Shown in pieces: positions 6,348 through 30,933 of a stretch of DNA of 64,000 nt. The first letter of the stretch is position 1. Each line of letters starts with the position of its first letter. A model generated the notes under the pieces. It searched no databases, was not told the origin of the DNA, and worked only from the letters and a program-made list of their open reading frames with translations. The position numbers and the translations under genes are program-made. The stretch covers positions 18,531,248 to 18,595,247 of the forward strand of contig OY540811.1 of NCBI GenBank assembly GCA_961205875.1, given 5' to 3'. This stretch comes from Sialis fuliginosa. Its lineage: Eukaryota; Arthropoda; Insecta; Megaloptera; Sialidae.

Positions 6348-6577
6348 TATGCTATCCATACATATTACAATAGTAATATGGATCTTGGCTTCTGGATCTA
6401 AGCCGCGTCGATTTGGTCGTGTTATCGACCAACGTTTTAGAAGAGCCCTGAAGATCTCCACTGCAATGTGTGAAGAAACATTGGCCGATAACATGATCTA
6501 ATCGACGCGGCTTACACCCAGAAGCTAAAATCCATATCAAGATCACCGCGGAAGCCTCAAGACTAGTATAATATTAA
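6348..6577. mobile_element. Foldback repeat with decayed hammerhead-like motif
   Basis: The arms 6374-6438 and 6475-6537 are diverged reverse complements (for example taagccgcgtcgat against atcgacgcggctta). The centre carries CTGAAGA at 6448-6454, then a partly paired CCAC…GTG hairpin, then GAAA at 6475-6478, matching the order of the other foldbacks in this window. The outer hairpin pairs are mutated, so activity is unlikely. A taatatta on both sides (6340-6347, 6570-6577) may be a target duplication, but it is AT-rich and palindromic. Confidence 0.6.
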
Positions 6578-9270
6578 TATTTTTGTAAAATATACTTTAA
6601 TTTATTATTTTATGAATAATATTCTTATATTAGGTATATTTAATACATCAATTATTCTCACTTCCTAAATGATATTACCCTTGACTACAATTAAAACAAT
6701 TTTTAAATAAAAACTGTATTTATATTTATTTTGAGTTAATATTTTAACACCACTTTAAATATTACCACAAAAATATAAATTCTGAATCTCATCCCATAAT
6801 TGTGGTCCCAACTCAAGCGCAAAAATTACAATGAGGAAAAGGAAACAACTCTGTGGAAATTAAAAAATGTCCGGGAAACCCCGCGCACATTAGGATCAAG
6901 TTTTATCACGGCATCGTCAGTAGGTCCTTCCGCTACCAGGATTCTTTACAACCGCGCGAGTGTATTAGTGTCTGAGAGAGAGAAAGAGAGAGAGAGAGAG
7001 ATTTTTTTCCAGAGGTAGCTTGCATATGAAACTATAATATTATAAATAGAGTGACATAAGTAACTTTTTATTTGTAAAATGTGAATTAAAACATAAATAA
7101 ATAATTAATATCACATTAAAAATGTTTAAAATTTTGACAATAAAAAACCTCTTTAAATATTATGTGCTGGAACATGACAATATGCCAACACTGAGTTTTC
7201 ATACATTGTTTATACCAGTGGTACCTCTTAAAATATAAAGATACATTTATTGTTAGTTATATTTACAAATTAATGCATTCCAAGAAGTTACTATTGTGCG
7301 TAAAATAGATATGTGTTTCTATGCTTAAAATAGCTATGTGTCTCTATGCGTAAAATAGCTATTATCTCTACATAAAGTACCTATAACCAATATTGATTTA
7401 CTTTGAATAATATTTTAAGATACAGTTTGCCGAAAAACCCATATTGAGTTCCGTGAGTTGGCAAAGCTACTGGTTTATAATAAAGATCTTATACTTACAA
7501 GTGCTTATTAAATGTGTCCTTATAAAATTGTCTTTTCACTTTTCATTCTGTCATGCAAATAGGAATCTATATATTCTTCAAAAAGTTTTGTACTAAAAAA
7601 TGCAAAATACAATAGTATTTGAAGTTTTTTTTTTATATACAACGACACTGATGTCGACTGGTTCATTTGAAGGTATTATAAAATATCTCGGTTCATATCA
7701 CATTCCACTACCAAAATGCCGTCAACGTGTTAAATTCATATTTAGCACATAGTTCAATAATTAACGAATGAAATTTATTTGATATAGGTTTTATATGGCT
7801 TTGTATACAAAGTGTAAATGACACCCGATCCATTGATCCATACCTTCCATTTTTCATGTGTTAGATAGTCAGCTATTTTTGATCAATATATTTAACACTA
7901 ATATTTTTTTAGTTTAAATATTTATTAAAATTTACTTAACCATAATTAAACAATATTGCTCGAAAAATGAATCCTTATCAGATGTATTAATAGTTTTTAT
8001 GTGACTAAAAAATCACAGTTTCTTTATTAGCTTGAATTGTATAGGAAGGTCAGATGTATCATAGTTATCTTTCTAGATTTATTCTCTTATATTAAGCCAC
8101 GTGAACACTTAACAATTCAAAAATCACATTTTTATTTCTCTAATAATTTGACAAGAGATGGCACCTTAGATTTTTTTAGTTTAGTCTTTCTTATTTCCTT
8201 TTTGAGCCACCACTGGATGTACATATATGATGCAATAGGGAAGGATATGTGTGGTGTTTTTATCTCTGAACAACAAGTTCGCGCTTTCTTGCGCTCGCGT
8301 GCTTCAATGTACCTATCCGCGATATCTCGAGAAAAACACACAATGCTGTATGGATTTTATCACTTTACTTCAAATACAATAAGTGTTGGTGGATTTCATC
8401 GTTTCACTTAGTTTAATATCTCTGTATTCTGTTGTGGAAATGTGGAATTATAAAAAAAGGTCACTGAAGCATCACTAAACAGTTTACCTTTCATTAGAGA
8501 ACCGTATTTACAAATTAATTTTACGGTTGTAGAAAAATATATTTAGTGATTTAGGGTTAAAAAGTTAAAAATACAAGAAAAATATTTGGCCACCTTGTAA
8601 AACTACATTTTAACAATACATTACTTTAATAATATATAAATTCTATAGAAACTATAATCGAAATCCATCATTATACACATATGTATATACATATATCGGT
8701 ATTTAATTAGTATTAAACATTCTCTTAAGCTCCAACTATAGACTTCACATCTGAAATGTCAACATGGTACAAAACACACAACATTACTAGCAATTATGCA
8801 ATTCAGTAAGGATCCACATGACGCATACAAGTCAAAGGAGCCTGTGTGTTTAATGCGCAGCTGGTGTTAGCTGAATACGACCACAGAATTCTAGAGAGTG
8901 AGTGTCAACAGAGATCTTGCATCTCGCGATAACTGGAACTAATGCAAGCTATAAAGTGTATGTTAGGTGTCTGTCTGGAAATTTAAATAATATACGTTAT
9001 TATTGTGGTACAAGATACTATTGCTATGGCATTTGCATTCGTATAATTGAGATCAGCAATATCGCTTGCCAACTAGTTAGTCTGAATACATGCCGGTTGG
9101 TTGGTTATTTTAATAAATATTATAAATTTGAATATAGTGGCATTATTGAATCAGTTAATTGACCTAAAATAATTGTTATGGGTATATTTTTGGCACACAG
9201 TTACTGCCTAAAAAGTAATAAGTAATTAACAAAAAGTAAACAATCATTTTATGAATATATGTACATTAGG
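6578..9270. other. AT-rich intron; GA microsatellite and possible old repeat
   Basis: A (GA)n run lies at about 6972-7001. A block at about 8050-8420 is slightly richer in GC (cgctttcttgcgctcgcgtg, tatctcgag) and may be an old mobile element, but neither open frame across it (plus or minus) shows a domain I recognise. Nothing else is supported. Confidence 0.4.
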
Positions 9271-9378
9271 GTGACGAAAAATTTCCGAACACAGGTTCAC
9301 ATAAAGTTTTTTGCTTAAAATTGCATCCATGATCTACTGTAAATTTTTTTACACTAGTTGTAAATAACCCTGTATATA
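9271..9378 (+). repeat. Dispersed repeat, copy A (inverted copy at 33809-33919)
   Basis: Shares landmarks with the reverse complement of 33809-33919: aatttccg, gttcacataa, ttttttgcttaaaat, gatctactgt, tttacactagttgtaaat, and an end like tatacaggg. It is non-coding and of unknown class. Confidence 0.55.
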
Positions 9379-10053
9379 AAAACTTAATAATATTACTTCT
9401 TCGTATATTTTACTTACAGTTAGTAGATTTTGTAAAGTTTTGCACACGCAACGACGATTTGTTCGTTCAGATTGAATAGTCATGATATTAAAGAAAAAGT
9501 AAATTATTATTATTGCAAGGGAGATTTAATAAAATATGCCCATTATTCTAATGTGTTTTATTTAGTAGCAAGTTAGTATAATATAAATATAATTTAATTT
9601 TTAAAACATTTTCATGAATTATTCATTTTATGGAAAATTAACAATGAAGTAAATATAAATTCATATTTCATAATATAATAAACAAACTCCCGTTGTCTGT
9701 GTATTTGTAATTTCATGTTTGTGTTTTTGATTATCTGTTTTGAAACTATCTAAAGCAGCTCTAACTTTTGGGGATTATAAATTCTTATAGTTTCTCAGGT
9801 AAGCAATAATCTATGTAATCCTTTAATTTAACAAAGGCATTACAAACTTTTCAAATGTTCGCTGTTCATGATAATTCACACAAATTATAATAATAATATG
9901 AAGAAGTTTATAATACAATTACATATGTTCTCAAGTTCATATACATATTTATGTGTAATGTAGTAACATAAAACTTATGTTGATGTTTTATTGTACGTAC
10001 TTGAATAATGTACAGAATAAATTTTTACTGCATTTAATATTTTAACTATTGTG

Positions 10054-11201
10054 TACTCTGGGCTGACAATACAAATGGCGACAAAAACAAAAAAATCCTT
10101 ATACTTTCCATAGAGTACCAACCTTAACTAAAATACTGTCAAAATTTAATGACATTTCATGTACTCTTGTTCAATTTACATCCTTCGAAGTGACGCTACT
10201 TTTGTTATTTTTTAATCAAAAAAGTTAATTTTGTGTTTTGATTAAACATTGTTTTTTGATGGGGAAAATTCTGTCCAAATAAAGAAATGGCTTGATAAGT
10301 GTAATGATACATCTGCCCCAGCTAATTCAACCGTAAAAAAATTGTTTGATGCCCCATGTTCAGGAAGGCCAAATGAGGCACTTACTCCAGAAATGAACAG
10401 AATGACTGTTAAGTGAAAGTTAGTAAGCTAGCTAACATCATAGGCATCTCAAAGGAACGTGTTAGTCATATCCTTCATGTATGTCTACATATGAAAAAGC
10501 TTTGTGCGCGATGGGTACCGCGCTTTTTAACAATTGGCCAAAAAGATGAACGTGTTCGACATTCAAAGCAAAATTTGGCATTGTTTCACTGCAATAAGAA
10601 GGATTTTTTTATGCGATTTGTGACAATAGATGAAACATGGATCCATTACTACGCACCGAAGTCCAATCTGCAGTCAGCAGAATAGTTATAGCCCAAAAAT
10701 TCAACAGTCGGCCGGTAAAATTCTTGCTAATATTTTTTTGGGATGCAGATGGTATAATATTTATTGACTACCTTCAACATGATAAAGCAATCAACAAAAA
10801 ACATTACTGTCCATTACTAGATCGAATGAACTACGAAGTCAACGCAAAACGGTTGCAAATGGCAAAGAAAAAATGTTGTTTTTCCAAGACAATGCACCAT
10901 CTCACACCATTTCGCACCCTCCGTATCTGATCTGGCCCCCAGCGACTACTACCTTTTTCCGAAATTGAAAATGTTACTCACTGACAAAAGATTTTACTCT
11001 AATGAAGAGGTCGACTTGGAAACAAACGCCTATTTTGGGTGACTTGACGCGAACCACTATAAGACCGATATCAAAATGTTAGAGAATCGTTGGAACAAGT
11101 ACATTACTCTAGATGGAGATTAAGTCGAAGAATAATGGAGGTTTTTCATTAAAAAATCGTTTTTTTATTGTTAGGCCAAGGACTTTTCAGCCCATGTAGT
11201 A
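10054..11201 (+). mobile_element. Degraded mariner (DD34D) transposon
   Basis: The right end reads ggacttttcagcccatgtag followed by ta. The left end, tactctgggctgacaa at 10054, is its eroded inverted repeat. A broken transposase runs between them on the plus strand. The length of about 1.15 kb is close to a full mariner, so this is a complete but dead copy. Edges are given to within a few bases because the left repeat is eroded. Confidence 0.75.
10258..11131 (+). pseudogene. Mariner transposase pseudogene
   Basis: Mariner transposase cuts and pastes its element using a DDE/D catalytic triad. Pieces are spread over several frames: a helix-turn-helix part with SGRPNEALTPE (about 10357-10389); then ISKERVSHIL and MKKLCARWVPRFLT followed by FVTIDETWIHYY, which carries the first catalytic Asp (10413-10684); then FFWDADGIIFIDYL and a QDNAP-like region in another frame (10637-10930); then SDYYLFPKLK with the third Asp and a C-terminal LENRWNKYITLDGD. 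A stop at about 10413, frame changes near 10670 and 10900, and a stop near 11040 inactivate it. Confidence 0.85.
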
Positions 11202-11784
11202 TGTAACTGAAACATATTCTTTTATAACCAAAAGTTTAATGTTGAACTAGAATATTTTGTATTTTTTTTTCTACAAGTTTAAAATTTAAAATATTCAGTT
11301 GATGCGATTAAACAACAACGCATCATATTAATACAAGTTAACGAGCAACTTCTCCAAACTAAGAAACTTTTTTCGATTAAATTCTGGCTTTAAAAAACCA
11401 TTGAATTTATAAATATTTGAAACAGTTTTCAATATACAAGACGAAAAACGCATCAATCATTGAAGACGCTCGGAAAAGTCAGGCACCAGAGTTTTCCCGC
11501 AATTTTCATGTCTGTCGGTGGTGTTTTATACAAGAGAAATGTCGTTTACTTATTTAGGTCAATTCAAGTGAAAACTTGCCGTACTTCTGGAATTGCTCCT
11601 TCATGTTTTAATACTTGCTATGCTCTATTTACAGATGCTTCTAGTCTGTGGTATGTGAACGGAACATGCATATCGTAATCGAATTCGGGTATCTGTATCT
11701 TATTTCTTATTTAATAAAATACTTTTTTTATTAATTATTTTTCTTTTGAATTCAAAATATGTATGTTTTACAAATTTGAAGTCT
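11202..11784. other. AT-rich intron with no recognised feature
   Basis: A 72-codon open frame (11460-11678) shows no recognisable domain or splice context. I see nothing else. Confidence 0.4.
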
Positions 11785-11793
11785 CATACTATA

Positions 11794-12240
11794 AAAACAA
11801 ACTTGTTTGACTAAACATCAAAATTTTTTTAAGAAAAGGTAATCGCAAGCTTTCGATTCACAGAATCATCGTCAGGCTAAAATATAATAAATTACAATTA
11901 AATACAATTAATATAATGAAAAATATTGATATTTTAAAATAACTATTTGAGTTACTAAGAGATTTGTTATTTTTTCAAACATTTCCGTAGTCACATGAAT
12001 ATTGTTGAGATAACGACATCGTTCTCACATTTTGATCTTTAATAATAGGTATATTTTCTGAATTTTTATTTTAAAATATCAATATTTTTCATTATATTAA
12101 TTGTATTTAATTTTCATTTATTATATTTTAGCTTGACGATGATTCTGTGAATCGAACGCTTGCGATTACCTTTTCTTAAATAAATTTTGACGTTTAGACA
12201 AACAAGTTTGTTTTTATTTATATTTAACGTCACTACTGTA
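11794..12240. mobile_element. Inverted-pair repeat with outward hammerhead-like motifs
   Basis: The arms of about 150 bp (11791-11942 and 12067-12217) are reverse complements around a 124-bp centre. The left arm, read on the minus strand, has an uneroded CTGACGA / hairpin / GAAA motif (see 11840-11880). The right arm has the same motif on the plus strand near 12134-12166, with C to T at the first core base and GAAA changed to GAAC. A catactata on each side (11785-11793, 12241-12249) could be a target duplication, but that word recurs in the right flank. A third, solo copy lies at 16137-16333. Confidence 0.7.
11840..11880 (-). ncRNA. Hammerhead-ribozyme-like motif (left arm of 11794 element)
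   Basis: On the minus strand: CTGACGA (11875-11869), one T, a 5-bp helix GATTC/GAATC closed by TGT, then GAAA (11854-11851), then the self-complementary AGCT followed by T, with the predicted cut after 11847. This matches the hammerhead order C3-U-G-A-N-G-A / helix II / GAAA / helix III / UH. The helix III of two base pairs is too short for one molecule and implies action as a dimer. Unlike the textbook core, one nucleotide is unpaired before helix II. Sequence-based; activity untested. Confidence 0.5.
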
Positions 12241-12249
12241 CATACTATA

Positions 12250-15200
12250 CATATCATACATACTATACATATAATAATAGCTAGAAGTGAAAATACATAA
12301 ATATATTTTACTTTTTAAAATTCAATATTATAACTTAATATTGTTTTTAATTAAATTTTCACAGAACTGTGGGTTTGTAACTATTATATCCATACGTGAA
12401 TTTATTTTTAATTTCTGAAAATACTGAAAATTGAACAAAGTGAAAAAATATATTATGTAATGATCATACGTACATATTACGTACAGATGTGTAGTTACCT
12501 ATATATCGCTTTTTAATTAAAGTATATACAATATATGTATAAACATAAGCTAAAAAAATCTTGTTTATGTATTTCTTGCTTTGTAATTTTTGCATACCTT
12601 CCTTTTAATTATTAATTAAACATAGACCGTGTTTTTTTCCGCCAGTTTTTCAGTGTTTGATTTTTAATAAAGTATAGGAGAGAAATATTGTAGTGATGAC
12701 TTTCTGCGGTAAAACGTACATTTGGTTAACAAATAGATATAATCTTACATTAGTGGATTTAATGATCTAACTTGACTTTGTTCGCCGTAGCTGTTAGATT
12801 CTATGTTTATTTTTTTATTTTTGCTGATTTAAATATAATTTATTAAAGATACATTTCCTAAAAACATAATATTACTTACAAAAAAATATGTCTTTCAATA
12901 CAAAATTTAATTTGTATAACTACAAGAACGATAAAAAAACATTGTGTTATGTATCCATATAACCGTATTAATCACACATAAACATATATAATATCTTGTG
13001 ACGTCATGCGCAGAACATTGTCAAAAACTCGGGAATACCATATCTTTATTATTTGTATCATGTACTAAAACTTGGGCAAAGAAAATATCTATGATTTAAA
13101 AAAAAAACAAGAAAATCGGATAAGTGGTTCTCGAGTGATACGGATAGACAATTAGACAGGCAGAGAGACGTTACATTTTGTAATGTATGTATAGATCAGT
13201 GATCTAAAAGCAGTGTACACCATAGAAAGAATAGCAGTATTACATTATTATAAAATTACAACTGCTCTAAAATCTAGACCAAATTCATAACGACTTGACA
13301 CCATGCATTAAAGTTACTTGTCATATATCAAAATACGATCGATTGTTAAATATACATAAGTATTTATAAACTAAAAATGCACATATCTCATACATACGGT
13401 TTGTTAACTTAAACAATACCATAAATAGTAAAGTAAATATATATTTTCACATAAAGGAAAAATATATGGTAAATATAACAGACGTGTTTATGAGAAAAGG
13501 TGGAGACAAACTGATATTTATATCAAATAAGATATATCTTAAAAATTATATGTTGAATAATTTTCAAAACAAGAGCATATAAAATGGCGAACACATAAAA
13601 CTTTATTGTTCATGTTTGTATACAAACATACACACAAACACATTTGAAAATTTTTATTTTGCGACGGTTATACGCTATAAAGTACAGCGCAAAAATTGTC
13701 ACTGGAAACGTTATCAACGGAAAACACGTACGGAAATGTATTATAGAAAATTTGGCATTATACGTAAGTACATATGAATGTATTTGTGAATTAAAATCGT
13801 ATACAATATTAAATGATTCTTTTATTATTTGTACGGACGATCGTAAAATTGCAATGATTTTAATTAAATTATAATAGAATAACGTTTCAAAAATAAGTTA
13901 CTCTTTTTGATGGAGAGTGGACAAAAAATTAATTAGTTCTGCAGTATAAATGAAATTCATGGAAAATATGAATAAACTCGATATTTTCAATAATAAATTG
14001 AATTTAAAAATAAGTTGTTATTATATATTTATAATAGAAATCTTATTTTCACCGACCCATTTATATAAGCGTCTACAAATAGTGTGCAAAATATAACTCA
14101 TGGAAAGTAACTGCATCCACACAATTTTACGTTCAAAGATAGCGACACGAATTACCCGCGGAAAACGGAAATAACTAAAAATTAAAATGTCAGACTACGT
14201 CCGGAAAATGCAATCTCAAATAACTTTTCACGGTTTCTTTATTACAAAAAGAGTGGGAGACTCTTGAATTCAATGAACTATATTTTTCTTAGACATAAAA
14301 TTCTAGAATTCTTATAAATAATTTTGAACTTGATCGTATTAAAGCAAATTATTTCGATTAAATAAATAATTATTATATTATATATTATATTATATGGCCC
14401 TAATACGAAATTATAGGCTGATGCACAAATACTTTATTTACTTGAATCAATTAATATTTATTTGTTCACAGCAATTTTTTTCAGTATACGCTTTACGATT
14501 GCGCGATAACAACGGAATCGCAAACCATATTTTCGTAAATTGAATTATCACTGTTACAAATTCCAAAACAAATCTCACAGAATCAATACCCAGTTTAAAG
14601 TGTTTGCAAGCTTACAATTTTATGTAATTTCTTTATAATAGCGTGCATTAAATAAATATTTTAATTACTGGTAATTTAATTAACTTTGGGGTAAGATATG
14701 CGTTTCATCATTGACTAAACTGTAATTAATTTTCTGTTTATCTATAAATTATATTTTTATTACACTCAAGCTCATTTTACGTGCTTCATATGTACTAAAC
14801 TTTTAAATGCCCATTATGTTTGCGCATTAAAATATTATTTAATTTTTTCTATTATAATTTCAATTATTTTTTAAAATGTAGATTGTAGATTTTATAAGTT
14901 AAATTTTATTAATTAGAAAATAATGCCAACAAAGGAAGAAGAAGAAACTTTAGAAAATATTTACTAATAATTTTGATTTATGGAAATTTATAATAATTTA
15001 TTGGATTTATTTCTTACCTTCGTAAATCCTTCAAAAGCACGTAGTTTTTAGCAAGGCATTATTTCCAATGGTTGAAAAGATTTAAAACGAACCAATTACA
15101 ATACATTGTAGTAATTCAGGTAGTAACTTTAAAGGTTTATATTTTGACACACACGGCAATAAAAATATAATCCAATAGAAAAATATAGAAAAATCCGAGT

Positions 15201-16136
15201 ATTCACAAGAAGATGGTAATAATGATAGTATGCCATGGACATATGTATACGTAATCCTTAAACACGAGCCTAGTTATATACGCTGTACATGTCCTGCTCG
15301 AAAGATATCCTGACAATAGTTTGAAGTTTTAAAGCCGCTTATCCCCGCAGAGCTACACCTGTCCCATACGAAGTGCTACGTGAGTTTAACTCTCTCAATC
15401 CGGTACATTATCAAAATTTACAAAAAACAAATGCGAGGATTCCAACACATGTTGAAATACTATAGTTCAGTGCAGCAATTTGCAAATTTTGCTGGCAGGG
15501 TGTGAATACAATTGTTTTCATTCGGAGTGAAGCAGTTAAACTTCTTACCGTGTTTTCTTCTTCGCGAGTGCCTTTTTATACTTTTGGATTTACTCTAGGT
15601 ATAGATAGAGAGAGGTGATTTTATTTTTGTATTAGAGGTGATTTTGTTCGATACTATGAGGAAACGTTTATTTTCATCTCCAGATAATGCGAGAGATGTT
15701 TCAAAAGTTTTAAAGTTAGAGGAATGCTTACCTTGCTCTGAGTTCAGTATTGTTCTAAATAAAGCTTATTGTGTCTACAAAAATAGTGTGAGAAATTTTA
15801 AGACATCTATACTTGTCTATGTCTCTATATGAGATTTATATTAAAATAATTATATTAAATTAAATTATATTTCAAGAGCAATACAATTTATCTTTTAACA
15901 TAGGTATTTTGCAAACAGGTTTATTTAAAAGTTGGCTTTTAAAAATTTAATTAGATGAAAATTAACGTTTACCGCATACAAAGGATAATGTTATTGTTTT
16001 TAATAATTACAAGTTTTTTTTAATGTGTCTATTTAATATCACTGCTAATATAATATGTATATAATTATCATATAATAACAAATTAATTGTCCAAACGTCT
16101 TTAGACAGATGTTGTAATTTCAAATATTTTTATTTC
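12250..16136. other. AT-rich intron; one RTE/SINE-like tail
   Basis: Apart from the tail at 13085-13205 I recognise nothing in this stretch. The open frames at 13644-13874 and 15638-15832 have no domain I know. An AT satellite-like run (ttatattatatattatat) lies at about 14370-14396. Confidence 0.4.
13085..13205 (+). repeat. 3' fragment of the RTE/SINE-like repeat family
   Basis: Reads aaatcggataagtggttctc, gagtgata, then gacaattagacaggcagagagacgtt. This is the same tail seen at 26641-26985, 36510-38160 and 39252-39655. The 5' part (gcttcgctcgcg box) is missing, so it is truncated. Confidence 0.65.
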
Positions 16137-16333
16137 CTTCTGAAAGGTATATTTCTGAATTTTTAATTTAAAACATTAATATTTTTACATATTATGATTG
16201 TTTTTAATTGTAGTTTATGATATTTTTAGCCTGACGATGATTCTGTGGATCAAAAGCTTGCGAAAACTTTTTCTTTAATAAATTTGACGTTTAAACAATT
16301 CATTTGTTATTATTTAATATACTAAACGTCACT
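16137..16333 (+). repeat. Solo copy of the 11794 hammerhead-like repeat
   Basis: Aligns along its length with the right arm of the 11794-12240 element, from ggtatatttctgaattttt through the motif to aaacgtcact. The core CTGACGA (16231-16237) and the hairpin are kept, but the G of GAAA is A (caaaag at 16251-16256). That position is essential in hammerheads, so this copy is predicted inactive. It shows the repeat also occurs singly. Confidence 0.65.
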
Positions 16334-17693
16334 ATATTATATTATTATATTATAAGTATCATAATATATATGCTCTGATTGTATTATGAAATTTTTGAGT
16401 CAATATGTCTTTTTACAGGAATTGTAATCTATACAAAATTTAAGGTTTCCGCAGTGATTTTGATATGAATTATAGTTACAAAATATGTATGTTCTGACTA
16501 GACACAACAGCTACTGAACTAATTTTAATATGACTTTCACTGTTATGCCGTGTTCATACCAAAAGACACACATCAACACAAATCGTATTTTAAAATGTAC
16601 CTATAGGTTTTGTTGCCATTTTATTAAAAAAACACACAATTTTAATATGAATGATTAATTAAATTAAACACGTTTTAAGAAAAATTACAATTATTTTCTA
16701 ATAAAAATGTATAAAAACTAAAATAATAATAAATTGCAGTTATGATATCAATATACCTAAATTAACCATAATCACTACCGGCATTGTAGAGTTGTGGTGT
16801 CTGTTTTTAAAGTAGTCAGTTACTGATTTTTACAATACGCGGGTAAAGCCGCGGATAAATTTCTTACAGTTTCATGAAATTTTTTAATCATATTAAAAAG
16901 TCAAATTAGTTTTATAACTATACCTACCTAATAAATTTTGTCGTAACTAATTTGAAATAAGATTTTTCGAAGGTGTTTAAAATCATTAAAACATCAATAG
17001 TCGTTTTTTAAACAGGAATAGAGCAGTTAAAATAAATTTCTTTTAGTACCGCTGTAAAATGAACGCTTTAAATTGAATTCTTCTAAATTTATAGGTACTT
17101 GCAAACAGTTAAAATGGATGTATTCTTGTAACTTAAATGATTACAAGCTTTAAAATAATAACTGTTATTTTCCACTAGATAGATGATTTTAAGTAACATT
17201 TTATGTGAAATAAATGATGTAGACGTATTTTTATCATTTTATGACTCTTTAAATTTTATTTGGAATCGTTACATCGGGAACTTTTCGATTCTTGAACTGT
17301 TTATTTTTATTTATAGTTTGATTTTCTTTAAATTGTTTGACTGATGATCGTTCAAGTGACATTGTTAGTAAAATATGACTATTGTTTTTGAATATATTAT
17401 GTAAATTCTATTAGGCATGAGTCATAGAAAACAAGCAAAAGAAGAATAGGTAACTATCCTTAAAGTCGAACAAAATAAAATAAATATATGTGTATATGTA
17501 TATTGTATATATAATCATTATTAGATGACAATATATAGATAATGTAATGGTGTAATATTCGGGAATCTAGTAGTATCAATATGCCTTTGGGTAAGTCCCA
17601 CTGAAACTACCCACTGAAAAATTATGATGTTATTCTTTTTTTTTCAAGAAAATAACTACAAACCATATATTTTCACAAAAATACTTTTGTATT
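16334..17693. other. AT-rich intron with no recognised feature
   Basis: I see no open frame, inverted repeat or known repeat end in this stretch apart from short AT microsatellites. Confidence 0.45.
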
Positions 17694-20045: not shown

Positions 20046-20584
20046 GTAATCTATTTACTTATTTATTTATTGTATAACATTTCAAGATATTTACCTTTAG
20101 TTTAAAAAAAAAATTTTATAACGAAGTACTAGAAATATCATTTTGCCATCACTGGGTTGCCATAACTGGTTTTACCTCTGCCACTACTGGAGAAAAAACA
20201 TGATCAAAATAAAAGGCTATAATTTAAAGAAAAAAAACTATATTTGCGGATTTTGGTAATGAAATCGATTAAATAAAGAGTTACTTGTTTTATTAGTAAC
20301 ATGAGTTCATGAAAATTACAAAAAACAAGCTCATTAATCCAAAAAAACTGAAAACTTGCTCTTATAGTGGCCACCACTGGTGCCTTTACCTTATTATAAT
20401 TTTTGTATTAAATAATTTTGTATTATACATATTATAAAACAAAATTATTAATTAAAATGATTAGTTAAGTCACATAAATAGAACAATCTTTAAAAAAAAA
20501 CGGGAAATTAAAACCAACCTCAGTCATTCTGAAACACCTGATAATTAAAATAAATATTGTAAAAACATAATTTGTTCATATGTG

Positions 20585-20635
20585 GCCGCGGGCCTCACAT
20601 AAGAGCGTCGCGGGCCGTGGGTTGGCCAGACCTGA
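20585..20635 (-). repeat. hAT-like element end fragment
   Basis: Read on the minus strand it begins CAGGTCTGGCCAACCC and continues through acggcccgcgacgc, the GC-rich subterminal pattern of several hAT non-autonomous families. I did not find a matching opposite end. Confidence 0.35.
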
Positions 20636-20837
20636 TCTAAAGGAATTTGTAAAAGTTACTACTCTTTCGTATAGCCATCTCCCCTGATCTTACTCTAATC
20701 ATTCAAAATCATGTTCTAAAACTTAATAATCCCATATTTAAAATAATATTATACCTTTCCATCATCAAATCCAAATGGACAAATATAAATAAAGTTCCAT
20801 CTTTTTAGAATTTTATTTATTTCTTCAGTGGCATTAA

Positions 20838-21180
20838 TCAACACACACACGTGCACGCACACACACACACACAGTACAGTCCACTGTCGGGATGACGTCA
20901 ATTGAAGCACTAATCTTCGGGGGATGATAGATTAATTTATTGTGGAGAAACCTGAATACTGCCTGCAAGAGCTCCGGCCAGGTTTAGGGACGGGAAGATT
21001 TTCGTTCGTTTGGCTCAAGTATTATGTCGGATATTTAGTGGAATTTAATTACCCGAAATTAGATGATGTTGTGGGGAGGGGTTAGGGCGTGGTGTCCAGA
21101 GATTAGTTCCTAGTGGGAGTTAGGGTGGTTGTTGTTAGTTGCGTAATACACATGGGGCTTGTGTAAAAAGTGAGGATTTT
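20838..21180. other. CA microsatellite and G-rich intronic block
   Basis: A (CA)n run lies at about 20840-20873. From about 20880 to 21180 the sequence is unusually G-rich for this window (gtggggaggggttagggcg, gtgggagttagggtgg) and contains no open frame. It lies about 0.9 kb downstream of the Ig2 exon in gene orientation, so it could be regulatory; that is only an inference from composition. Confidence 0.35.
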
Positions 21181-21485
21181 GATGATTCATCTTATGTCTA
21201 TTTAAAGTGTTCGTAATTTAATTCTCCCAAATTAGATAGATTATGAATTATGATTGTTATTAATTAATTATGATATTGTGACGTTGAATTTATTGTAAGA
21301 TTGTGAGTTTAATTAATTAAATTATGGGCAGAGACGTATTCAAGGGGTATGTCAATTAAATGACGATAATATAAGATCTATGTTTTGTTGATATAAGCTT
21401 CCAGATACAGTTTGATGAATATTATTGGTTAAGAAAAATCAACTCGTAGCTATGTAAAAAAATTAAGAATAATAATATTTCTGTT

Positions 21486-21702
21486 TTTGAACGTTATTTC
21501 GCATTGCACTATATTGTCACTTAACGTTTCGACCAACATCTCGTGGTCTTCTTCAGAAGTGAAGTGTTAAGTACAGAAAGTGTAGCTGCTTAATTAAATA
21601 AGCGTTAACGTTTGCTAGAAGAAGACCACGTGATGTTGGTCGAAACGTCAAGTGACAATATAGCGCAACGCGGAATAAAACCCAATAATCAAAAGTTTAT
21701 AC
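21486..21702. mobile_element. Inverted-pair hammerhead-like repeat with 12-bp target duplication
   Basis: A perfect 12-bp direct repeat, aatatttctgtt, flanks the insert (21474-21485 and 21703-21714). Inside, 21494-21554 and 21618-21679 are reverse complements of about 61 bp around a 63-bp centre. Each arm carries the CTGAAGA-like core, a GACC/GGTC helix and GAAACGT reading outward. The left, minus-strand core is uneroded; in the right arm CTGAAGA has become TAGAAGA. The duplication length fits target-primed reverse transcription. Confidence 0.8.
21515..21560 (-). ncRNA. Hammerhead-ribozyme-like motif (left arm of 21486 element)
   Basis: On the minus strand: CTGAAGA (21556-21550), one A, helix GACC (10-nt loop) GGTC, GAAA (21530-21527), self-complementary ACGT, then T with the predicted cut after 21523. 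All core positions fit the CUGANGA…GAAA…UH consensus apart from the single extra A before helix II. Confidence 0.5.
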
Positions 21703-22029
21703 AATATTTCTGTTCTTTATTTATAATATTCCGTAATCGTATTTTTAAAATTTTATCAACACGTAATGGTAGGTTTTGTGAACGATTCAGTAAATCGAAT
21801 AAATCAATAAATAATTTATAAGTTTAAGTAAGGTGCGACTTAAATCTACTTTGTATTTAATTTGTTAGACGTAATAAAACATATTATAGAGCTGGTTTAA
21901 GTTCCCATTTTATTTTTATTTTAAAACAAATGTTAAAATTTTATATTGTTCCCAAACGAGAGAACAACAGTACACGACTATAGTACTTGAATGTTTTATT
22001 TCACTCGATACTTATTGAGTTATTTTTAC

Positions 22030-22200
22030 CTGTGTCTGCGTGGTAGAGATTCTTGTGCACCAGGAGGTGTTCCCCGTCTTCCCTGCGCCACAGGATACGC
22101 GGCGACGGACGTCCCGAAGCGCGACAAACCAGTGTCGCGTTCTCACCCTCCTGGGCAGTCAGGTCACTGCTCGTTTCCTCGTCCCGAATATCCGGCGGAA
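22030..22200 (-). CDS. DIP-family gene, exon with first part of Ig domain 2
   Basis: This is an internal coding exon of 171 nt on the minus strand. The acceptor is tttgttgcag before 22200 and the donor is gtaaaaat after 22030. It enters and leaves in phase 1. With the G left by the Ig1 exon it reads [14 protein letters not shown], then [14 protein letters not shown] with the first Ig2 cysteine, then [11 protein letters not shown] with the core tryptophan, ending HKNLYHADT. The VPPDI linker and the C…W…REDG pattern are diagnostic of the second Ig domain of DIP/lachesin proteins, extracellular partners of Dpr proteins in synaptic wiring. An NAT sequon is present. GC content is far above the flanking intron. 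The rest of Ig2 is not in the window. Open frames on the opposite strand here are shadows. Confidence 0.9.
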
Positions 22201-23468
22201 CTGCAACAAATCAACAACGATGTTATACAATGTTATTTATATGAATCATAATATTGTAGTGAATCATTTAGATAAAAAAGTTTATTAGGTGATATTGGAT
22301 TTAATATTTTCGAGATATTCCAGAAATATTTTTATACCGTGTTAAAATAATATTGTAACTGATGCAGATTCAAAAATGACTCACGAATATCTTAAATTAA
22401 CACGTTAATATGTACATATGTATGAATGTAAACTTTTCGAGGATATTTTATATAAATTTTTTTAATGAATCGACAAAATTTGGAGTAAATTATTTCTTAA
22501 TAATAACTATCAAAAATATTATCGTATTGTAAAAAAAAATGTATTATGAATTTTTATAACTGAAATCTAAAAAAAATCCTATGAATTTTTTTTCGATATT
22601 TGTAAAATAGTCGAAAGTTGCCTCATTTTCCACCCTTAACAACTAGTTAAGGTTGTAATTTTGCAACTACTCTATAGGGATCTGGTGTCTATATGGTGGA
22701 TTCGCACACCTGAGCAGCCATTTTGACGACTTACTTCTTTTGATATGTCCTTTCAAAAAAAAAAAAAAAACCGTTAATTAAAACGACCATTACCTTTCTG
22801 AGATGAGGTACGATACAAAAGATATTAGAATTAATTTTAATTTAAAAATTACTAAATGTTAAAGGAATTATTTACATATTAATAATAAGTTTTAGTTTGG
22901 GAAGGGTCGAAATATTCACCTGAAGAAAAACACCCCATAAATTTGTTCGCTTAATAAGCTAAAGTAGATCATACGCCCACTGAACTGTGCTGCTCTCATC
23001 TGTCGTTATAATGAACTGAAAAATTGTTCAATTACGAAATTTAATAGGGATTTTAATATGGTAATCTTGTTCAGCTAATTTTCGCTGCCAATATTTTTTA
23101 TTAGGGTAGGTACTGGCGCGTACTGATTTGTGATTATTTTCAAATTGACACTTGCGAATGATTTCTTGCAGATAAATTAGGTATATTTTCTTGATAGAAA
23201 ACCCACGCGAATGTGAATACTTACAATTTGATTTCTAGTTAGAAGATTTATTATTATTTTTATTTAATTAGCTTGATATTATTAGGACAATGTAAAAATG
23301 GCAAATCTTGGCATGTAAAATTCCGTAAAAAAATTTGTTTAATGAAGAAACCTGAATTATATTTTAATCTATCATATTTTTTTGATCATAAACTTTCAGA
23401 TATTGAGTAAACAAAGGTCTTCAAAATGATACATTTGTCAATTATTGTGATACCTTAGAGAATTTAAC
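22201..23468. other. AT-rich intron with no recognised repeat
   Basis: Ordinary AT-rich intron with a poly-A run at about 22755-22772. I see no other feature. Confidence 0.4.
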
Positions 23469-23479
23469 AATAAGTATAT

Positions 23480-23517
<38 letters not shown>

Positions 23518-23587
23518 GAAAAACGGAGAAACTGTGGTTTCTTAGTTACTAAACTAAAAATACACCTTAACCACAAAAATTAATGTC

Positions 23588-23632
23588 ACTCGACACGTGT
23601 TTCGACTTCACGAGAAGTCCTCATCAGGAGCC
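23588..23632 (-). ncRNA. Hammerhead-ribozyme-like motif, left arm
   Basis: Mirror image of the right-arm motif: CTGATGA (23627-23621), one G, GACTTC/GAAGTC helix with a TCGT loop, GAAA (23603-23600), self-complementary ACACGTGT, C, predicted cut after 23592. It differs from the right arm only in the loop. Confidence 0.6.
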
Positions 23633-23657
23633 AAACGATTCCAGTCTGGAATCGTTT

Positions 23658-23702
23658 GGCTCCTGATGAGGACTTCTTGTGAAGTCGAAACACGTGTCGA
23701 GT
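23658..23702 (+). ncRNA. Hammerhead-ribozyme-like motif, right arm
   Basis: CTGATGA (23663-23669), G, helix II GACTTC (23671-23676) with loop TTGT and GAAGTC (23681-23686), GAAA (23687-23690), then helix III ACAC/GTGT with no loop, C at 23698 and predicted cut after it. Helix I could start GCTC/GAGT. The loopless helix III implies that two copies act together, as known for small hammerheads of Penelope-like elements. The G at 23670 is unpaired, unlike the textbook core. Confidence 0.6.
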
Positions 23703-23755
23703 GACATTAATTTTTGTGGTTAAGGTGTATTTTTAGTTTAGTGAATAAGTATATG

Positions 23756-24662
23756 GTTTTACCGAAAACTTAACTTAAAATAAACTTTGGCATCGACTAC
23801 AATAAGACATATGTAGTACATTATTGTGAGGTAATAACAGCATTAATTTAAAATTAAAACCATACATTTCATATAATCAAATTATTCCATACAAACTTTG
23901 ATACTTTTTAATTTACAAAATATAGACTGATCAAATCCCTAAACAGTGATTTTCAATTAAATCTTTCCATAGTAGGTTTTTATTTGCAACATTATCACTT
24001 AAATGAAAATGTATAATGTAAACATTAATCATCCATATAACCATGAGTATAGGAACGGGTGAGAAGGGGGGATAGCTGTTGCTTCAACATTACACCACGA
24101 ATATATTAACAGGGGTGATACCAAATATTGCAACAATGAATTAATATAGTGTGTTTTCGAAATTTTGCTAATACAATATTACCATCAGCTAACATGAATT
24201 ATAACTGTGATTCTATCTCAATTTTCCAAAAAATAATATATGTGATGATGCGTTATATTGTATCTAATGGAATAGAAATGGATACGGATAGAGTTTAATT
24301 ATAATAAACACGTTGATAATTGATTGTTATTAATTGTAGTTATTTGAATAAATAATTAACATTTAAAACTTTTATTTAAAATTTCACTAAAAATCATCAA
24401 TAGGAAAAGTATCAAAATATCAAAGTAAGGTATCGTAATCATATATTTTTTTTGTGATAAATTTTGATCTGGTAGTTGAATTTAATTTTTTTAAAGATTT
24501 TTGGAATTAACGAGATATAGAAAATTATGTATTTATTAATTAAATGTTTTTATCAAGATATTGTAATTCAAAACTTTAACATCACTGCTATAAAGTTAAA
24601 TATATAAAAGATCTGTATAAAGCTAGAGGAATCATACCCGGTATTTTAAAGAAATTCTAAAT
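23756..24662. other. AT-rich intron with no recognised feature
   Basis: No open frame, inverted repeat or known repeat end that I can support. Confidence 0.4.
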
Positions 24663-25145
24663 ATACTAGCGAACCCACCCCGTTTTCGCACGGAAGTTAA
24701 TATTTCACCCCCAGTCACGTATGGAGGCTTGTAATTGTTGTTTTAGCTGATCTGGCAAACGTTTTTTTGCCCAAAAATAATTTGTTTAAAAATCAGATCA
24801 TGAATACACATTTTCGTAATTATCTCAACACCTAATACCGGGTCCAAAAAATAATAAATCTAACGGAGCAGCAAACACATATATGGTGTGAATATGGCTA
24901 TGATACATCCAGTGGTTTAGGCCTGACGAGATCACATACAAAAAATCAACATTTTAATGTATATTTATAAAGAAAAAATATAGTTTCTCGAAATATCTCG
25001 ACCCCAGCACCACCTACCGGATCCAAAAATCTAAACTTATCGGAACACCAAACGAACATATGGTATGAATATGGCTTCGATACATCCAGTGGTTTAGGCC
25101 TGATAAGAACACATACATACGTACCAACGTTTTTATTTATTAATA
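24663..25145 (+). repeat. RTE/SINE-like repeat with internally duplicated module
   Basis: Starts tactagcgaacccaccccgt, resembling the opening box of a common insect SINE/RTE-derived family. A module of about 115 bp occurs twice, about 175 bp apart (about 24828-24945 and 25008-25118): both copies contain atccaaaaa or gtccaaaaaa, cggaRcaNcaaac, tatggtRtgaatatggct and gatacatccagtggtttagg. No coding sequence. Confidence 0.55.
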
Positions 25146-25957
25146 TTTATTATTGTGCACTGTGCAGTAATTAAAAAACTATAGTGCAAATAATATATGT
25201 AATATATTTTGTACGTCCAGAGTAACTTACTGTATTTTAGTAAATTTGAGTACCACTGTTCTAAATTAAAAAGAAGTCACAGAATAATACTCTATTCATA
25301 GTGTTTGTAAATTATATCTATTTGCATTATAATTCCGGAAAATTTATGGTTTAAGAAAATATTTTTTTTTTTTACTCGCTAACCATATTTAAATCTTAAT
25401 TATTTTATTGAATAATCTAGTAGGATACGTTTATATTCCACAAATAAACATTAATCGTATTTACATGAGATCTCGCTCGCGCTGCTGTAGCAAATGAATA
25501 CTTAAGAGATCCTTCACGTCTGCCTGTACGATTTTAATACAAATTGTTACAAGTGGCTACTTAATTTCATGCAAAGATAGATGTGGATACAGCAGTCATC
25601 TATTAAGGGATTAAAATTGTTTTGATATTTCTATATTGTTAATTCGAGTTTTCGACATGATATTTATTGGAATTAAATTTTTTATTTTATTTTATTTTTA
25701 TTTTTTAATATGTTATGTTATGGCTACAAATTATTTTCGCTATGACTTACATAACAATATTTTTTAAATTGAATAAATGATGATTTTAAAAAAATATTTT
25801 GATGCTAATAAACAAAGACCTCATTCAACCAGTTTTTTTGAAACTTTAACAAAACTCTTTTATTTTGAGAGTAAAATACTATCGCATGTGAAATTACAGC
25901 GATTTTAGGATGTAATCACATAAATCCGATTTTTTCTCATATTTTACAATAAACTAC

Positions 25958-26200
25958 TTACCTTGGGTTGCACAAAGCAAAATTAATCACAATTAGTTAA
26001 TCAGTTGTTTTAAAACCATTTTTACGTCAATTCTAAAAAACAATCACGGTTATGATATATTTTATAAGATCAAAAATTATCATATTTAGCGAATTTTTTA
26101 TTAACAAATGGAGATTAAGTTTAGAATGAACATTAATCATGGTTTAAAAACAACTGATTAACTAATTGTGGTTAATTTTGCTTTATGCAACCCGAGGTAA
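25958..26200. mobile_element. 243-bp MITE with about 60-bp terminal inverted repeats
   Basis: The left end ttaccttgggttgcacaaag and the reverse complement of the right end (ttacctcgggttgcataaag) match for about 60 bp through aattagttaatcagttgttt. The GGGTTGCA-type ends recall PIF/Harbinger MITEs, but I see no clear 3-bp duplication, so that assignment is tentative. Confidence 0.7.
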
Positions 26201-26640
26201 TTGTTTTAATCCGAAATAGTCAAAACTTCGCTAATTTTACAAGCTTTTTCTAAAAATGCGTACATACATGCATTAATTAAAGTCCCCATTTCCAACTTTA
26301 CTATCTATTTTTGAACTATTCACACTTTTCAGTTACAACAGTATTTTGCTAGTGAGCGATAATTACGTTTCATGAAAAATACAGAAAACTGTTACATACA
26401 CAAGTTTTACTTTGATTAAAAATTATTTCGTGACACACCGGACCTATGCTGTTTTGAACAGTTAAAAACATGTAGGTATTTATTATTTCAAATGTTTCAA
26501 TATAAAAAAATGGAAATATCAAACATCTGTGACAAGGATAAAACATACAAAAAATGTATAATAAAAAGTATGATTGACTTTTATTAAGATTGATCGTTAA
26601 TAAAATAATAGTATAATAAAATATCCTTAAGATTATACAA

Positions 26641-26985
26641 ATACTAGCTGTGCCCGCGGCTTCGCTCGCGTGAACTACGGACACATTATTTAGGATTTTT
26701 GAAAAATATAGTTGAATTAATTGAGACTTTATACTTTACATCATTCTTTACTACATTATATTTTCAATATTTTACGGTTTAGGTAGCGTATTACAAAAGA
26801 GCGAGCAGGCGGCAAAATTTTTTCCAACTTGATTTACTATTATCATCACTGCTTATTCCTTATGTTACCTATCAATGAATTAAAAAAAACAAGTAAATCG
26901 GATAAGTGGTACTCGAAAGATAAGCGCACTAACGGACAGACAGACAGAAAGAGACGTTGCGTTTTATAATATATATAAATTCTTT
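26641..26985 (+). mobile_element. Short RTE/SINE-like repeat, full-length small copy
   Basis: Opens with tagctgtgcccgcggcttcg and ends acggacagacagacagaaag, agacgttgcgttttataata. In between it shares ggatttttgaaaaatatagt, acggtttaggtagcgtatta and gacttgatttactattat with the arms of the 36510 foldback. Non-coding, about 340 bp. It is best explained as a non-autonomous retroelement whose tail resembles RTE elements. Confidence 0.7.
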
Positions 26986-29900
26986 AGTTAAAGATTCAAT
27001 ATATATTTAGAAACCAATGAACATTTAATGATCAACACAAATCCTTAGATCCGAATTATACCACAAAACATAATATTTACATATGTACATAAATTTGCAA
27101 AAATACCATCCCATATTTCATTCCGAATGTATGTAAAATACATATTAAATACGAAATTTTCTTTGTTTCCAATAATCCCAATCTGTTCGTCGGTTTCCTT
27201 CGGGATAATAAAAATTACAGGAGCGAGGATCACGTTTAATAAAACAGTACAAGTTACATTAAGAAGTGGGGGTATTCGGATAAATCTGGCACGTAGATAT
27301 TGAATGTAGAATAGCTATAAGCCTCCCCTCAGTTTTACCCCCTACTCCGTATCATTTTCTTCTTCCGCTTTTTCCACTTTTGATTGTATCGGGGATCTTT
27401 TCTAATCAGGGCTGATCAAAAATAATTATTTTAGACTTCTGTAGTTGTTACAATGGTTCACTTGAATTCAAGAAACATTGGTATTAGTGATTACAATACC
27501 GTGATCACAAAGAAATTAAAACCACGATTGACTTGTTGGTCACTTTGCTGTAAAAGCTCTTAAATTTCAATTATATTTTACAGATTTGTCTTAGATGTTC
27601 ACTTATTTCTTATGTATTTAAGTTTTTTATAAAAATGTAAGGCTATCTGTTATTTTACGTAGTTATCTATACAAGATATAATTCGCAAATAATTTGAATT
27701 TTTCTTGCATATTGTTTTTTATATACTTATATATTTGTAAGTTCTATTTATATCAAGTGATTTTTTTTATTGGGCGAGGGGTTATATAGGGGCGCCAATG
27801 AAAGAGCCAGACACTACTGGTGTGTCCATGGTATGATTGGTTACAAACACCAATGTTTAGTATCTGAATTAAGTTAAATTAAACTGACAACATATTTCGA
27901 TATTTCAACGTTTTTTCATTGGAAATGAAAACTAAAAAATTACGTGTTTGCTAAAAATATATTAGAATATAAATTTATTTTATGTCAGAAATAATCACAG
28001 GATAATATAAGGGTTAAGTATTTGATCCAGTACTTATTGTAATCATTAGTAAGTTCAATATAACATGAGATAGAACCCTATATAAATTAAAAATATATTG
28101 ATTGATTTTCACATTGTATTTGTTTATTATTCTTTTCTATTAATTTTTAATTATGCTTAAAATACCAGAGGGAAAATAATTACGATCAACAGATTTTTAT
28201 TTCTATTTGAATTATATTTATAAAAAAATATTTCACCTGTTATGACTATCATTAAAAAAATATTTAAAAAAGTTTATATTATATTATATTACCATCATTT
28301 AAAATAAACCCTGTAGGGACCTACCTCTAAATTGATTTTCAAAATAATTTAGAAATACGATATGTACCTATAATGTTTAAAACAGTAGTTTATATTAATA
28401 GATATACATATGTATATTGTATATGGTAATTCATGTTTTTAATTTGTTGATTTTATGATTGCTTTTAATTGCCTGTATGATCATAAATGTTTATAAAACT
28501 TTATTTACGTAGCTAGTGTAATATAAAATATCATTTGTCAGTATTATTTTGATGCTATAATTAAATTGAAAGCAAAATAAAATGTATATATGTAGTACTA
28601 GTACATACATATACCTCCTAAAATCTATGTACGTTTTTGTATGCTTGTATAAATAGATAACAATACCATTATTTGTTTATTTTAAAATAAACTTTATTAT
28701 TTTCATAACATTTACTAACTCTACCAATTGACTTGAAATGCTTTATTCAATTTATTAATTTATTACACATGGTAATATTATAATATTAAATTATTTAAAA
28801 ATTAAATTTAAATGAAGAAAACAAATAAAGAAAAAATATGAATCAAGATATATATAATGTCACATAGAGAAAATAAATATGTATGGAGGTATCTTTTACT
28901 CTTCATATAAGGTGAATAAAGTGTCCCGAAGGTGACATAAAAGAAAATATATATGTTTTTGTTGATGGCTTAAAGAAAGTGGACCTAAATACTTTTCTTT
29001 TTAATGCATTTGATCTTGGGAGTTCAATGTCCTACAGATTTTTATATATGTATGTTTAAAAAAATAAAAATAAAACGAAATTTTTACGACTGATTTTTTA
29101 ACGTTGGAATACATTTTTTATTGAATCTTATTAAATGCTAAAACTTACATTTTTGAATATATTACTAACGATAATTTTCAGAAATTATTTGTAAATCATG
29201 TTTTCACAATGGAAATTCCAAAATCAACGAAAATATGGTTACGTAAATCTTGAATAGCCCCTTATATATAAGAAAAATATAATTTTAATATCATAAATAG
29301 CTCGCTTCAATTATGTTGAAATATTGGTATCCCTGTTCGAATGCTTATGAAATGTTAGAGTGGTGATATTAAAGTTGGAACGACTGTCTCCTCCGTAGTT
29401 ACAGCAAAGGCTCGTAGAGCCCGCGGCGGGCGCCTAAATTTATTTGTTACGCTGGAGATAAGAATTTGTCTTCAAGACTTAACCGTAATGTGCGCGGCAT
29501 TTGTTCTGATCGTATATGTGCAAATTTCATACGTATCTTCAGCGTCGTTGAATTTTGTCTTGTATATACTCGTACATACATACATGTACACTATACAGGC
29601 TCATGCCAATGTATTTAAGCTGGATATATATTATATGCGAGAGTGGTATTGTTTTGGGATGAGCGAGGAGTTTTATGCTTGTATTAATTTACATTCATAA
29701 ATAATATTCTGAGTTATGTTTCGATTATATTTTATCATGATATTGTCAAACGTTTATTATATAAATAATAGTTAGAATTTATTTTTTTATGTTTATATCT
29801 AAAATCAAAGTCAAAATTTAAAATTAATGGTTTTGAAGCGTGATCAAAAAATACGAAAATATATATTTATAAGTTTGTTGACCTAGTCCAGTGCATTTAG

Positions 29901-30399
29901 ATTAAATGTGTCTACGGAAAAATTTGCAAGGAACTGAATTTTTGTAAATACTTTATAAATAAGGTGTTAAAAGTCTATAAATCCATTGTGAGCATACTTT
30001 TTTATAGTCCATAAAAGGTACTTACATTTAGTTTTTAGTAAAACTATTCTGGACTAGTATATTAACAGAACAAATTTTTTTTCACATCTGAAATATCATT
30101 GATTTTCCTACGTAGTAAAGTTATTCTACTACCACCCTGTATATTCATGACACCAAAAGTAACAGCGCTTTTTCTGTTATAAACAACAGACAGCTACAAA
30201 AGTATTCAACTAAAACAAAAGCTTGTTTAACCAACAGGAATATTTCGTGTCGTGCATTTAAATATTTTACCATTTTTTTCATTCCTCGAGGATATGGCGA
30301 TACCTTTTTCAAAATCATTTCCTCTTGAATTGGATTTCTCACATTTCAAATGAAATGTCTTGACTGGCGTGAAATTTTGATATCCGAAATGTAAATATA
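26986..30399. other. AT-rich intron with no recognised feature
   Basis: An accctgtata at about 30134 resembles the tatacagggt repeat end. A short GC-richer patch at 29390-29450 (gagcccgcggcgggcgcc) has no coding or splice support. Otherwise nothing. Confidence 0.4.
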
Positions 30400-30410
30400 A
30401 TATATATATA

Positions 30411-30456
<46 letters not shown>
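30400..30456. repeat. (TA)n microsatellite
   Basis: Nearly pure TA run on the left of the 30487 foldback. A second TA run (about 30936-30961) lies on the right, so the foldback appears to have landed in or next to a TA microsatellite. Confidence 0.85.
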
Positions 30457-30458
<2 letters not shown>

Positions 30459-30486
30459 TATTCATATATATGACCATCTTGATATT

Positions 30487-30933
30487 ATTTAAATATACCT
30501 ATTTTGTAGGGGTTTTTTTTAGGTCAAAATATTAATTAAAGAACTAAACCAATGTTCAAATCATTTTAATTAATAGCGCTTATTTTAATTTTCAACATTT
30601 TTGTCTTCATCAGAAATTAATAATTATCCCTATAAGAAATCATAAACATAAGTAAGTAACATAAGCAAATGAACAAGATATTCATAGATATAAACATATT
30701 TTTTTTTACTTACAATTAAAAAAAAATATGTTTATATCTATGAATATCTTGTTCATTTGCTTATGTTACTTACTTATGTTTATGATTTCTTATAGGGATA
30801 ATTATTAATTTCTGATGAAGACAAAAATGTTGAAAATTAAAATAAGCGCTATTAATTAAAATGATTTGAACATTGGTTTAGTTCTTTAATTAATATTTTG
30901 ACCTAAAAAAAACCCCTACAAAATAGGTATATT

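Follow-up and report, generated by a model that had tools for sequence, protein, structure and literature searches.

Organization of the window

This analysis examined short repeats with hammerhead-like motifs in a 64-kb stretch of the genome of the megalopteran Sialis fuliginosa (assembly GCA_961205875.1, contig OY540811.1, positions 18,531,248 to 18,595,247, 27% GC; hereafter the window), together with their copies in the genome searched, 392 Mb in 20 contigs. Four of the repeats, families A to D, are almost certainly the 5' leaders, or pseudo-long terminal repeats (pLTRs), of four different Penelope-like retroelements (PLEs), each carrying a hammerhead ribozyme motif. Each lies in the window as a head-to-head pair of leaders, and family A also as a single decayed leader, with the following features (window positions):

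11791-12217: family A, head-to-head PLE leader pair; arms 11791-11947 and 12061-12217 (inverted-repeat search, 94% complementary)
11845-11877, minus strand: family A hammerhead, weak, with a 2-bp stem I; core 11869-11875, predicted cut 11847/11846 (descriptor)
16224-16285, plus strand: single decayed family A leader, which a preliminary description had placed at 16231 (repeat search)
21472-21700: family B, head-to-head PLE leader pair; arms 21472-21554 and 21618-21700 (inverted-repeat search, 82% complementary)
21517-21562, minus strand: family B hammerhead; core 21550-21556, predicted cut 21523/21522 (descriptor)
21474-21485 (left copy) and 21703-21714 (right copy): target-site duplication AATATTTCTGTT of family B (sequence)
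23541-23749: family C, head-to-head PLE leader pair; arms 23541-23644 (minus) and 23646-23749 (plus), 1 nt between (inverted-repeat search, 97% complementary)
23659-23702, plus strand: family C hammerhead, plus arm; core 23663-23669, predicted cut after 23698 (descriptor)
23588-23631, minus strand: family C hammerhead, minus arm; core 23621-23627, predicted cut 23592/23591 (descriptor)
23514-23541, minus strand: tail, at the left end of family C only (mapping to the C unit, and coordinates)
23469-23480 (left copy) and 23744-23755 (right copy): target-site duplication AATAAGTATATG of family C (sequence)
30486-30939: family D, head-to-head PLE leader pair; arms 30486-30711 and 30714-30939 (inverted-repeat search, 100% complementary)
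30808-30843, plus strand: family D hammerhead, plus arm; core 30812-30818, predicted cut after 30839 (descriptor)
30582-30617, minus strand: family D hammerhead, minus arm; core 30607-30613, predicted cut 30586/30585 (descriptor)
30455-30485, minus strand: tail, at the left end of family D only (identical to the tail at the right end of another D array, locus L108)

The hammerhead motif and its distribution

The bare word CTGANGA occurs 21 times in the window (11 plus, 10 minus), and so carries little meaning by itself. The descriptor used for hammerheads comprised, in order, a stem I of at least 2 bp, CTGANGA, a stem II of at least 3 bp, GAA, a stem III of the form A...T, H17 and the 3' strand of stem I, with a looped stem III permitted as well. 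Six sites in the window passed it in full (23663+, 23627-, 30812+, 30613-, 21556- and 11875-), against a total of 11 matches in 400 simulated Markov windows of 64 kb (0.0275 per window, never more than one). The hammerhead motif in the window is genuine and far above chance.

The preliminary description, made from the letters alone, had reported this motif at seven sites, and the word CTGANGA was indeed present at all seven. Five of them (11875-, 21556-, 23663+, 23627- and 30812+) pass the descriptor, while 16231+ and 6448+ fail, and 30613- passes although it was absent from that list. The 16231+ site lies in a copy of family A in which GAATCGAAAG has become GGATCAAAAG. The 6448+ site was rejected as a hammerhead because it has no stem II, its CTGANGA beginning within the 38-nt spacer of a 62-nt inverted repeat; the claim that five repeats share the motif accordingly loses one member. 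The wider proposal, minimal PLE-type hammerheads in at least four distinct families, is borne out by A, B, C and D, the sequences around the motifs are as unalike in these families as had been stated, and the descriptor coordinates give the same predicted cut after 23698. The earlier observation was right in part, and its interpretation partly so, being right in kind.

The element at 6448 (6376-6537) is a self-inverted repeat separate from families A to D. A genome search with it found 1212 candidates, of which 40 were scored and produced 84 matches; the 39 best copies besides the window itself were 82-93% identical.

A second descriptor scan covered 299,919 bases of flanking and copy loci, which partly overlap, and returned 135 matches in families A to C plus nine further rows. 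Four of the nine are variants of family B (L049 and L061, which are one place, L052 and L072), four represent three additional families, E (L062, L105), F (L078, with a related copy in L087) and G (L097), and the last, in L056, looks like a chance match. Families E, F and G turned up by accident in flanking DNA, at loci L062, L105, L043 and L042, at L078 and L087, and at L097.

Leader families and their coding regions

Family C gave the fullest picture. Its genome search found 370 candidates, the 40 scored among them yielding 63 matches, and 38 loci were mapped onto one 515-nt unit taken from L028. The longer copies carry, in order, a GIY-YIG peptide, a stop, a TATA box, the word TCAGT, the hammerhead and the tail, and by sequence the hammerhead is followed by a region where reverse transcription would start, which has two alternative end points. 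The TATA box and TCAGT initiator directly ahead of the ribozyme form a putative promoter, as would be expected of a pLTR. The endonuclease matched PF01541 at E 0.0013, under Pfam's cut-off, and had five homologues, among them a beetle protein with PF01541. In L106 a single open reading frame runs through the reverse transcriptase (RT) into the start of GIY-YIG, and its RT matches PF00078 at 8.5e-10 and has 374 homologues (best 120 listed). Of the 25 two-armed C inserts, 18 have the inner ends of both arms within unit positions 378-391, the putative transcription start being position 379, and the copy in the window is therefore a near-perfect palindrome of the leader alone. In the other seven pairs at least one arm stops outside these positions, and in six of the seven the arms are unequal.

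A 33-nt run of T separates the left target duplication from the family C tail in the window (23481-23513), and a run of A directly follows the tail in four other C copies (L008, L009, L014 and L021). Such runs may have arisen where reverse transcription slipped as it began, or from a short template that had been polyadenylated.

In contrast to family C, where RT and GIY-YIG were found in one frame, the other three families were seen with an endonuclease. The search with family A gave 51 matches from 40 scored of 1261 candidates, and endonuclease coding lies upstream of the leader in L087 and L092 (tblastn, best 4.4e-8; BLASTP against 125 PLE proteins, 7e-13); in the plus arm of the window copy the core at 12133-12145 has decayed. 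For family B, 40 of 373 candidates were scored and produced 49 matches, with endonuclease coding upstream of the leader in L070, L073 and L074 (tblastn, best 1.3e-19); the plus arm in the window (GGTCGAAACGTC, 21638-21649) has lost its hammerhead core. A tblastn search of the 64-kb window itself with PLE proteins gave no match. The B palindrome (21522-21650) also gave a sub-threshold Rfam match to MIR2934, which looks like that of a generic long hairpin.

Family D differs in being arranged in arrays. Its search gave 43 matches from 40 scored of 427 candidates, and 41 of the 43 listed were full-length and 100% identical over the 191 bases compared. When grouped by hand, and with one 77% match excluded, they formed 14 multi-copy clusters and one lone copy. 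All 14 clusters are head-to-head, with minus copies to the left of plus copies. Ten of 12 same-strand spacings measured 3,559-3,571 bp (the other two 4,936 and 10,829). Clusters such as C3:21748680-21765728 hold up to three units of about 3.56 kb per arm. An endonuclease frame in 561 bases of a D unit is about 31% identical to PLE proteins (BLASTP against the same 125 proteins, 1.4e-16); the 611 bases adjoining a D leader held no endonuclease frame. The identity and arrangement of its copies suggest that family D is a young and probably active PLE.

Taken together, the nucleotide and protein evidence indicates that the units are PLE 5' leaders, mostly head-to-head, rather than stand-alone ribozyme repeats.

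Hammerhead structure and predicted cleavage

The core CUGANGA, GAA(A) and NUH cut site of a type I hammerhead were found in all four families of the window. Stems I and II pair across the seven families A to G (stem I of A having 2 bp), and 67 of 70 helix cells were paired, whereas 5000 strand-partner shuffles averaged 44 and never exceeded 56; the count is biased towards pairing, since these families were selected by a pairing descriptor. Stem III is ACACGTGT, ACGT, AGCT or AATT, the self-complementary words having been quoted correctly in the preliminary description, with the eight-base word ACACGTGT in E and ACGT in F and G, and its shortest reading was loop-free in every descriptor match. 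In A, B and D this stem is unable to close as a hairpin, and because a four-base self-complementary word cannot do so, cleavage should need either a dimer or a protein. Single-strand folding was better than that of shuffled sequences in B (z -2.15) and weakly so in C (z -1.15). It seems fairly likely that the ribozymes are active in at least one of these two families.

Few leader arms start near the predicted cut. Among the fetched loci, 4 of 43 arms in family A did so within 4 nt (L083 and L098 within 1 nt, and also L084 and L092), as did 1 of 42 in family B (L050) and 0 of 63 in family C. A 19-mer spanning the family A cut site has 384 exact copies in the genome, and where neighbouring copies lie at most 400 bp apart, 17 of 17 pairs are minus-then-plus (hand count, among the matches listed). 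Against these 384 copies across the cut, a genome-wide strict pattern for A arms beginning exactly at the cut (three non-matching bases before it and an exact 16-mer after) found 0, although the pattern misses more than half of true cases, including L083 and L098. Cleaved RNA as the usual template was rejected for family A on these counts, and cleaved templates look rare in that family.

Pattern of insertion

The inverted and tandem arrangements typical of pLTRs, with an optional tail of about 30 nt, were seen in all four families, as head-to-head pairs in A to C and as tandem units and head-to-head clusters in D, where both arrays seen carry one tail each. Two-armed inserts (arms within 400 bp) are head-to-head with a tail of 29-38 nt at one end only in 48 of 51 pairs, comprising 25/25 in C, 11/12 in B and 12/14 in A. 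Target-site duplications in the PLE range of about 8-15 bp, at AT-rich sites, were found at many C loci and for C and B in the window; those of C are about 12 bp and those of A and B less clear, the detector having missed or misplaced some.

Subfamily variants were concordant between the two arms of one insert beyond what independent draws would give. Discordance was seen in 0 of 26 comparisons in A (10.5 expected), in 10 of 57 in C (23.9 expected; nine concern the palindrome centre base and one is a deletion), and in 11 of 64 in B (29.1 expected). Five of the eleven fall in L052, which may represent two insertions.

The junctions between arms often contain short shared words. In family A an overlap of at least 3 nt was present at 7 of 13 junctions, compared with 10.6% of random joins, a comparison that tilts somewhat towards overlap, as the observed overlaps were taken from the ends of BLAST alignments, where a mismatch can be included, and the random control from exact matches only. 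In family C an imperfect 7-8-nt word is common to both sides at 9 of 25 junctions. The arms of L005 join at CCGG, a word that is native in L106.

Interpretation and alternative explanations

The best overall explanation, and one we hold to be likely, is that these repeats are PLE leaders with minimal type I hammerheads, probably inserted by two-ended priming, that is, by target-primed reverse transcription from both strands. The PLE protein would cut both target strands, and cDNA would be primed from each, at the tail site on one and at an inner site on the other, using RNA of one source. Both cDNAs would extend to the 5' end of the RNA, which in most C inserts is the promoter start, before being joined at their 3' ends, often via short shared words, to give mirror-image leaders. 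The hammerhead sits within the copied leader and would act as a double (dimeric) hammerhead or with the help of protein. The one-tail rule (48/51) and the variants common to both arms together favour two cDNAs from two target strands and one RNA source, and two-ended priming, taken by itself, is a reasonably probable mechanism.

Self-priming (snap-back) on an antisense transcript would also make palindromes of PLE leaders and would account for identical variants in both arms, and the cited part of a published account proposes it for palindromes at head-to-head PLE junctions of Adineta vaga (PMC3846280). However, 9 of the 25 C centres leave no more than one or two bases unpaired, which gives no room for a hairpin loop unless it was trimmed, the seven C pairs with an arm ending outside positions 378-391 are mostly unequal, and a related element primes both strands in vitro, according to the portion of that study drawn on here (PMC11167929); we regard self-priming as possible but rather unlikely. 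Readings outside the PLEs fare worse. Animal retrozymes, short non-coding tandem repeats that spread via hammerhead-made circular RNA, share the type I hammerheads, the numerous short copies and, in D, the tandem units, but the copies found here are mostly single or head-to-head leaders tied to PLE coding instead of tandem arrays of about 170-400 nt, and the absence of strict-pattern A arms at the cut, against the many copies across it, speaks against this very improbable alternative.

The inverted-repeat shape and short target duplications would fit foldback DNA transposons or miniature inverted-repeat transposable elements that happen to bear hammerheads, yet the arms are the leader of an element with RT and GIY-YIG, and the linked PLE coding contradicts such an origin for A to D; with asymmetric ends, two arms truncated independently and D units in tandem at a near-constant spacing, it is extremely unlikely. 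Chance resemblance to a hammerhead might be suspected from the frequency of CTGANGA, of which 6448 and seemingly L056 are cases, and from the folding of A and D, which is no better than that of shuffles. Set against the simulated matches, the six sites in the window and the three further families in 299,919 bases, with helices kept despite different sequences in seven families, make chance scarcely credible as an explanation.

Several results weigh against two-ended insertion of hammerhead-bearing PLE leaders. Pfam found no GIY-YIG in the endonuclease pieces of A or D and a weak one in B. Three of the 51 pairs break the one-tail rule, the junction comparison in A is tilted as described above, and B junctions show little overlap (2 nt at 1 of 10, with 1-32 nt of filler at the rest). 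Cleavage in A to D is predicted from structure, and the folding energies of A (z 0.21) and D (z 0.67) do not surpass those of shuffled sequences. The Rfam models, which the preliminary description had put forward as a check, detected no hammerhead in the window at gathering score or at E<=10, and RF00008 had no match across the whole genome, in a search that also detected 0 of 14 controls; this minimal form of the hammerhead may lie outside the Rfam models. Finally, for the in vitro element referred to above, PAc, the cited portion reports start sites that are equal on both strands, as opposed to one tailed and one untailed end in 48 of 51 genomic pairs here (PMC11167929).

A more speculative extension of two-ended priming, which we consider improbable, is that the main role of the PLE hammerhead is dimerisation, with the loop-free, self-complementary stem III pairing two sister RNAs into a double hammerhead. 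If so, a single complex would offer each cut target strand a template of its own, copied from the tail site in one case and from the inner site in the other, giving near-obligate one-tail head-to-head inserts.

Other features of the window

One host exon was identified, DIP-gamma-like, at 55969-56283 on the minus strand, and the one gene in which the preliminary description placed all the families is putative. An inverted repeat at 58496-60116, with 717-nt arms that are 95% complementary and 187 nt apart, had no match to the PLE proteins compared. The open frame at 62741-63748 carries RNase H and zf-RVT domains and probably derives from the 3' portion of a non-LTR retrotransposon. At 36526-39638 and 26655-26952 lie direct and inverted repeats, nested and with common CGCGGCTTCGCTCGCG-type ends, and a sub-threshold Rfam match to MIR533 at 37360-37447 looks like a generic long hairpin.

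Comparison with known systems

Minimal type I hammerheads in the pLTRs of PLEs, with helix III absent or very short, were reportedly described by Cervera and De la Pena in 2014. Compared with the known minimal hammerheads of PLEs, those described here have the same type I topology and pLTR location, but occur in new families and have stem III words that are loop-free and self-complementary throughout. Families A to D are new PLE families bearing hammerheads of an already known type. The relevant part of a 2017 review states that all available PLE sequences have a minimal hammerhead, usually without helix III (PMC6155905).

The closest experimental counterpart is PAc, a Poseidon element of Anolis carolinensis, which has RT and GIY-YIG and a hammerhead at the pLTR-ORF junction. 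As described in the cited portion, its protein cuts and extends both target strands in vitro at AT-rich targets, reverse transcription begins at two neighbouring internal positions of the RNA, by which the tail is defined, and hammerhead cleavage needed protein (PMC11167929). The elements of S. fuliginosa resemble PAc in all of these respects save the last, with RT and GIY-YIG, a hammerhead, two putative start sites and a tail, probable priming on both strands and AT-rich targets. In Adineta vaga, as far as the cited part of that account goes, Penelope elements have a TATA box and initiator in the pLTR, inverted pLTRs with a 31-bp tail on one, target duplications of 8-10 bp, and palindromes at head-to-head junctions (PMC3846280). 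The putative pLTR promoter, inversion, one-sided tail, target duplications and palindromes are thus shared, but the cited part mentions no hammerheads, many inserts here consist of the leader alone, and where that account infers self-priming on antisense RNA, two-strand priming is favoured here. Animal retrozymes are described, in the portion cited, as non-coding tandem repeats of about 170-400 nt with circular RNA, and amphibian retrozyme hammerheads whose helix III is weak perform better as dimers (PMC7229834); the type I hammerhead and weak helix III are alike, but the repeats described here form the leaders of PLEs that encode protein.

Within the parts of the literature cited, both the role of the hammerhead in PLEs and the origin of head-to-head PLE copies are unsettled. 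PLE hammerheads, inverted pLTRs and tails have already been published, and no priority is claimed for the one-tail count; what is new bears on the insertion of PLE leaders, and its added value lies in genomic support for two-ended target-primed reverse transcription. With its many short leader palindromes from several PLE families, this genome makes both questions testable by counting.

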